The notes under the pieces were generated by a model. That model was given only the letters and a program-made list of their open reading frames with translations, searched no databases and was not told where the DNA came from. 38,635 nt of DNA from Bacillota bacterium (GTDB taxonomy: Bacteria; Bacillota; Sulfobacillia; JAJYWN01): assembly GCA_021791495.1 (NCBI GenBank), contig JAJYWN010000054.1, forward strand, positions 1-38,635. The letters run 5' to 3'. This document shows, in pieces, positions 22,610 to 23,764 of the stretch (the stretch's first letter is position 1; every line of letters starts with the position of its first letter). A program made the position numbers and the translations under genes.

Positions 22610-23344
22610 CTAGATGACGATCTTATTCCCGGCGGCCTTCAGGACGTGCTGCAAGAAGACCTTCTCCGGCACAGCGCCTTCCACGGACACGGAATCGTTC
22701 ATGACCGTCTTGGGCACACCGCGGACCCTGTTCTCCTGGGCCCAATCCATGAACTCCGTAGCTTCCACCATGCTCCCGATGATATTGGCGTTCTCCAGCG
22801 CCATCTGGTGAGCCAGCCGCACCGCGGCCGGGCAGTACGGTCAGGTAGGGGTTACAAATACGTTGATTTTCACCGGGGATGTGATGGTCTTCAGCGCCGC
22901 CTTGGTCTCCGCGGAGAGCTTCCCCTCGCCTTTACCTACGTCGGTGATGCCGGCGATAAGTGACGCGAATTCGTACCCGCCTGGGAAACCGTAGAACCGC
23001 ACGCCGCGGTCCTTGCCCTCCGGGTCGAGGATAATCGCCGCCGGCGCCCGGTCGACTCCATACTCCTTGGCTTTCTCGGCGTCGCTATGAAGGTCGTAGA
23101 ACTGGGCCGTCATCTTATCCGATATGGTCGCCAGTTCCTCGAACAGCCCCTTCATCTCCGCGCAATACTCGCAGTCCTGACTCGCCGCACTCTCGTCTCC
23201 GGCCGGACCCGAGGCTCCCCCAGCCCCCTTGGCCCCCGCGCCGTCAAGCCCTTCGGTGAAGACCACCGCGGTCACTTTGCCGCTGGGGATCTCCTCGAAG
23301 GCTTTCTTGATGTAGTCGCGGTCCTTGTCGGAAATCATCGCCAT
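22610..23344 (-). CDS. Selenocysteine-containing glutaredoxin-like protein disulfide oxidoreductase
   Basis: 244 residues read through an in-frame UGA at 22843-22841 (Sec168). Two thioredoxin folds are visible. Domain 1 has CEYC (Cys58/Cys61) and a cis-Pro region RAPAAII. Domain 2 has FVTPT-U-PYCPAAVRLAHQM, where U takes the first position of the normal CPYC site, then the cis-Pro motif VRGVPKTV. Both halves are in the same frame and each resembles the two-domain PDO/Grx-like family of anaerobes, where the first position is normally Cys. A hairpin of the bacterial SECIS type starts 9 nt after the UGA. A Gly/Ala-rich insert of about 25 residues precedes CEYC. The start is ATG at 23344. Ordinary gene callers would split this into a 167-codon and a 70-codon gene. 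A sequencing error (TGC to TGA) is the main alternative. Confidence 0.88.
22813..22831 (-). promoter_or_regulatory. Bacterial SECIS hairpin
   Basis: On the minus strand the stem CCGGCCGC pairs with GCGGCTGG (8 bp, one G-U) around a GGU loop. The stem begins 9 nt and the loop 17 nt after the UGA, within the range known for bacterial SECIS elements. The loop carries the G and GU that SelB recognises in known elements. The structure was seen by hand pairing. Confidence 0.75.
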
Positions 23345-23443
23345 GCTCCCAATTCTCCTTCCACGCCCGCCTCTTCGTGACTTGCCTTCTTCACATCAGC
23401 TTTGTTTTCGCTCCGTACAGGAGTTTTCCCCCATCTGGCGCGC

Positions 23444-23764
23444 TTACGACGGTCTCAAAGTAATCGAGATGTCTCGTGGGAACGAGACGCCGACCTCAGC
23501 CTCGATAGCTTTCAGAATCCCCGCGGCCACCGGACATCCCGGATGGCGGGTATGCTTGCCCAGGATCTTGCAGACCTCGGTGTCCCGGCCCGGGCCGAAG
23601 ACCTCGCTCAGAGCCGGCAGATCGGCAAGTTCGTCGGCGGCTTCCTGGACGTTCGGACACTCACTCATCATCTCAATGTGGACTCTCTGTTTGTCGGGCG
23701 TGGCCGTGACATTGACGACTGTGCTGAATCCACAGTTTCCAGCGTTTATCTCTGCGGTGATCAT
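23444..23764 (-). CDS. Small conserved cysteine-bearing protein of unknown function
   Basis: 106 residues, cytoplasmic, with four cysteines in NAGNCGF, MSECPNV, TEVCKIL and HPGCPVAAG. It resembles a small conserved hypothetical family of anaerobic Bacillota (DUF6951-like; recalled, not searched), whose cysteine positions suggest a metal or Fe-S site. The start ATG at 23764 has GGAGGG about 13 nt upstream, slightly far. It lies 99 nt before the selenoprotein gene on the same strand, behind a promoter with TATAAT at 23832-23827. The two probably form a redox-related operon. Confidence 0.75.
   Translation of the reverse strand: MITAEINAGNCGFSTVVNVTATPDKQRVHIEMMSECPNVQEAADELADLPALSEVFGPGRDTEVCKILGKHTRHPGCPVAAGILKAIEAEVGVSFPRDISITLRPS

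Follow-up and report, generated by a model that had tools for sequence, protein, structure and literature searches.

Does the in-frame UGA that joins two same-phase, minus-strand reading frames at this locus end a gene, or does it encode selenocysteine (Sec)? The stretch of DNA in which the locus lies, called the window throughout, is 38,635 nucleotides long. An earlier note, made from the window's sequence alone, had read the UGA as Sec in the catalytic UxxC site of a two-domain thiol oxidoreductase.

Reading frame and fold of the oxidoreductase

We began with the frame itself, which computation establishes. It runs from an ATG at 23344 through the TGA at 22843-22841 to a TAG at 22612-22610 and yields a read-through product of 244 residues, MAMISDKDRD...FVTPT-U-PYCPAAVRLAHQ...KIVI*, in which the UGA is codon 168 and occupies the first place of the CxxC site in domain 2 (TPT-U-PYC). 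These coordinates agree exactly with those in the earlier note, and a search of the host's own genome recovered the same gene, flagged with one TGA. The features of the locus are collected in Table 1. The joined frames taken alone mean little, because the six frames of this GC-rich window contain eight cases in which a single TGA links two long open stretches of one frame; we accordingly discarded this geometry as evidence for Sec. The alignment of homologues, however, shows conserved sequence both before and after the TGA, reaching almost to the C terminus, the continuity that the earlier note had described.

Table 1 Features of the oxidoreductase locus in the window
Feature	Positions	Strand	Basis or remark
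Protein disulfide oxidoreductase (PDO) gene, predicted to contain Sec	22610..23344	minus	244 codons + TAG stop, one internal TGA; TIGR02187 247 bits
In-frame UGA, predicted Sec168, which opens the U-P-Y-C active site of domain 2	22841..22843	minus	Cys or TGA in all aligned homologues
Cys171, putative resolving cysteine of UxxC	22832..22834	minus	column C171 invariant in homologue alignment
Domain-1 CEYC motif (Cys58, Cys61)	23162..23173	minus	sequence and alignment
AAGGAG, probable ribosome-binding site	23355..23360	minus	sequence seen shortly 5' of the ATG
Candidate bacterial SECIS hairpin, CCGGCCGC-GGU-GCGGCUGG	22813..22831	minus	8 bp, loop 22821-22823, -13.9 kcal/mol
DUF6951 family gene (PF22263), four Cys	23444..23764	minus	94.3 bits, cut-off 27; directly upstream of the PDO gene

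The family and fold of the product are equally plain. Residues 6-237 align with positions 2-209 of the NCBIfam model TIGR02187 (PDO_seleno_TRX) at 247 bits, above a cut-off of 185; Pfam thioredoxin and glutaredoxin models also match, and phmmer connects the product to the Pyrococcus furiosus PDO 1A8L at 1.9e-49. An AlphaFold model (pLDDT 92.2, pTM 0.89) consists of two tandem thioredoxin folds, and its best match in the PDB is again 1A8L (TM 0.83/0.90, 40% identity). These matches uphold the two-domain, PDO/Grx-like assignment of the earlier note. Both active sites of TIGR02187 are present, UPYC at residues 168-171 in domain 2 and CEYC at 58-61 in domain 1. Just N-terminal of CEYC lies a low-complexity, Gly/Ala-rich insertion of ~20 residues (residues ~31-55) that is modelled with low confidence and is shorter or absent in most relatives, the comparison being with the homologues aligned here.

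The archaeal PDOs (P. furiosus 1A8L and the Sulfolobus solfataricus enzyme), which are the biochemically characterized form (PMC7465337, PMC7278568), share the two thioredoxin folds and the two CxxC positions but have Cys at the domain-2 nucleophile position, where the window protein is predicted to have Sec. The N-terminal domain of AhpF (E. faecalis 5H29/6IL7, E. coli 4O5Q) has the same double thioredoxin fold and is less close than 1A8L, at ~22% identity. Moreover, AhpF is fused to a flavin reductase, whereas the window protein stands alone, and its scores fall well short of the AhpF cut-offs.

The DUF6951 gene directly upstream is possibly co-transcribed with the PDO gene. We make no firm claim of an operon, because in the ~1.5-kb flanks surveyed for most loci only one relative, L066, has the same gene order. 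L066 belongs to another family of the same class, and its DUF6951 gene lies upstream of a Cys-type PDO.

Selenocysteine machinery and the distribution of the UGA

We searched the host genome, a 4.2-Mb draft in 81 contigs, for Sec genes by family searches. On one contig (C47), selA (582 bits, above cut-off) adjoins selB (331 bits with its neighbours in frame), and the same contig carries a tRNA-Sec gene (selC) with a TCA anticodon. The genome has selD twice, and each copy carries a single in-frame TGA close to its N terminus, within a SelD-like Sec context rich in Gly (GKAGUGCK and GSGUACK). Because selA, selB, tRNA-Sec and two selD genes are all there, the Sec pathway in this genome is complete. 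The earlier note had held that absence of selA, selB or selC would speak against its reading; these genes, and selD, are present. A tRNA scan of the window found none, selC being on another contig, and a second tRNA-Sec-like Rfam match (C54:51407-51491, 49.1 bits) turned out to be tRNA-Ser(TGA). We also observed that selC lies 3' of trxB and trxA, which have the same orientation (L010 1497-3035, C47), and that the selD paralogues (G000:C10:34029-35000, L018, and G000:C54:48833-49753, L019) each have their own Sec-like TGA. Two Sec-type SelD copies in one genome seem unusual.

These results bear on the idea that a variant code is at work, with UGA decoded as Cys or Trp, by reassignment or read-through, and no Sec recoding. 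Such a decoder, if it inserted Cys, would also produce an active enzyme, the site being Cys in other members of the family. TGA, however, is a normal stop in the window, where it ends 9 of the 29 main genes and occurs internally in the PDO gene alone, and the genome has a tRNA-Sec with anticodon TCA together with SelA, SelB and SelD. We regard a variant code as scarcely conceivable here.

We next consider homologues, sought in 398 genomes of the phylum, 61 nearest relatives and named metagenome-assembled genomes. The site codon could be read in 60 distinct homologues, the window's own included, and was TGA in 36 and TGC or TGT in 24, so that Cys or predicted Sec occupies the site in every one, as the earlier note's reading implies. 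The TGA was always at the equivalent of PDO codon 168. Judged from this alignment, the coincidence of a TGA with the catalytic Cys codon, and its recurrence there in 36 of 60 homologues, are far beyond chance.

An ordinary PDO gene whose TGC or TGT codon had suffered a nonsense change, or had been miscalled, would look similar in several respects: the assembly is a draft of 81 contigs, TGA is one base from either Cys codon, and both halves of the product resemble a normal PDO. Yet TGA also stands at this codon in the 29 further whole genomes where the site was read and in six named metagenome-assembled genomes, three genomes of the same order (44-48% identity) have both the TGA and a nearly identical downstream hairpin, and the host's Sec pathway is complete. 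The recurrence of TGA at codon 168 refutes a pseudogene or sequencing error in practice, and we consider either extremely improbable.

The UGA also tracks the machinery that would decode it. Every one of the 30 TGA-form genomes sampled had selA (in G171 as two contig-edge pieces; for G310 the TGA was taken from the search table) compared to 10 of 18 genomes with Cys forms only (Fisher p = 1.2e-4, a value that is only indicative as the genomes are related and not independent). On the homologue tree, nine Sec/Cys changes are needed (bootstrap range 8-10), and the best-supported branches alone force two. One exchange within a genus appears recent: L071 (G433) has TGC where L070 and L072 (G419 and G443) have TGA. 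In L071 the sequence 3' of the codon has hardly changed, and the genome still has selA, which makes L071 a case of a remnant or incipient SECIS. Separately, four genomes of genus g2 (G008, G055, G094 and G183) each have multiple PDO paralogues, some of which match as a pair of domain pieces that lie apart, each containing one TGA, a pattern that suggests selenoprotein expansion and changes in domain spacing.

The candidate SECIS hairpin

Folding the minus strand gave the hairpin as the earlier note had described it, with an 8-bp stem, a GGU loop and a 17-nt spacing. The candidate extends from +10 to +28 after the UGA with its loop at +18 to +20, and, of the published bSECIS constraints, it fits those that we checked, namely loop size, stem length, a G in the loop and a spacing of 16-37 nt (PMC13188914). 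The arrangement resembles SelB/SECIS decoding in E. coli formate dehydrogenase in its selA, selB, selC and selD genes, in a hairpin directly 3' of the UGA and in a G-containing apical loop. An Rfam scan of the window had no matches, a result of little weight since bacterial SECIS hairpins are very diverse.

Taken alone, the hairpin is weak evidence and just modestly better than chance, because 20 of 500 synonymous resamplings that kept the protein had an equally good SECIS-like hairpin; the dinucleotide-shuffle z for the region was -1.5. When 64 nt of naked RNA were folded, an overlapping stem from +1 to +24 won by a narrow energy difference (-14.0 vs -13.9 kcal/mol). A ribosome halted at the UGA would, we infer, enclose the 5' arm of this competing stem. 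Across homologues, SECIS-rule hairpins of -8 kcal/mol or lower were found in 26 of the 36 Sec rows compared to 4 of the 24 Cys rows, and the mean z against synonymous nulls was -1.28 for Sec and -0.53 for Cys rows (Mann-Whitney p = 0.002, with rows that are not independent). The register of the hairpin differs by ~1 base between lineages.

Because the genome has the Sec machinery, the UGA is conserved in relatives and a hairpin obeys the SECIS rules, we infer that Sec insertion at the UGA is very likely; the same three lines of evidence support the earlier note's central reading. We have little doubt that the gene encodes a PDO of two thioredoxin folds with SelB/SECIS-directed Sec at position 168.

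Catalysis, domain 1 and the known selenoprotein family

In the mechanism that we propose, SelB and Sec-tRNA(Sec) would act on the hairpin just 3' of the UGA and place Sec at residue 168 in the U-P-Y-C site of domain 2. From archaeal PDO biochemistry, the Sec selenolate would be expected to attack substrate disulfides and Cys171 to resolve the intermediate. Reduction could proceed via thioredoxin reductase, for which the host has one gene above the family cut-off, or via the domain-1 CEYC, and the archaeal homologues point to peroxiredoxins and oxidized protein thiols as likely clients. In S. solfataricus, electrons pass from NADPH through thioredoxin reductase to PDO, which serves peroxiredoxin reduction; the C-terminal site dominates thiol-transferase activity, and isomerase activity needs both sites (PMC7465337, PMC7278568). 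Sec at the C-terminal site would put a better nucleophile at the dominant site, which fits these data.

The earlier note had also envisaged an asymmetric redox relay. Of the 40 aligned homologues, 8 lack the domain-1 CxxC, and five of these 8 have Sec; the domain-2 C/UxxC is invariant. With so many relatives lacking it, Sec forms included, the domain-1 motif is not essential in the family, and this pattern makes an obligate relay through domain 1 unlikely across the family. A relay running from domain 1 to domain 2 would be at best optional; the window protein still has CEYC and may use one. It is also conceivable, if rather doubtful, that in this lineage Sec in domain 2 made the domain-1 CxxC dispensable. 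The enzyme would then be a single-site selenol oxidoreductase in which domain 1 is a docking or structural module, Sec and Cys would have been swapped repeatedly, once within a genus, and the window protein would be an intermediate with both sites. The loci that lost the domain-1 CxxC and kept the domain-2 C/UxxC are L051, L055, L058, L067, L078, L083, L086 and L090, which comprise Sec and Cys forms.

The fate of domain 1 also bears on whether the locus makes two meaningful products, the Sec read-through protein and a UGA-terminated domain-1 protein of 167 residues, their ratio depending on how much selenium is available. When selenium is scarce, translation is generally expected to end at a Sec UGA, and the short product would be a whole thioredoxin-like domain with its own CEYC. 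Nothing we saw, however, points to selection for domain 1 as a product of its own, and in several relatives with the same UGA the short product would have no active site because the domain-1 CxxC has been lost. We judge this two-product arrangement very unlikely.

The novelty implied by the earlier note did not hold, as the Sec family was first described in 2006 and is already catalogued. Reviews list a predicted selenoprotein "Homolog of AhpF N-terminal domain (Grx-like domain protein)" with TIGR02187, UxxC and ABB15282.1 (PMC13188914, PMC9312934), a 2006 survey counted two Sec members, in C. hydrogenoformans and Symbiobacterium thermophilum (PMC1794560), and a 2007 stop-codon survey places C. 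hydrogenoformans CHY_0740 in a TGA family called "glutaredoxin-like" (PMC1914089), which is presumably the TIGR02187 family. The NCBIfam name PDO_seleno_TRX itself contains "seleno". The window protein shares with the catalogued selenoprotein the NCBIfam model, the UxxC motif and a single Sec, and differs in coming from another organism and, judged against the homologues aligned here, in the insertion that precedes CEYC. The window gene is thus very probably a genuine Sec form within a known selenoprotein family.

Since the family is already in selenoprotein catalogues, the overall picture of Sec biology is unchanged. The earlier note did read correctly, from raw sequence, a gene that standard gene callers can cut short at this codon. 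The analysis also widens the recorded spread of Sec PDO from two members in 2006 to many genomes of the host's phylum, with TGA forms in several metagenome-assembled genomes from elsewhere, two of them labelled Deltaproteobacteria, and with several Sec/Cys exchanges on the PDO tree.
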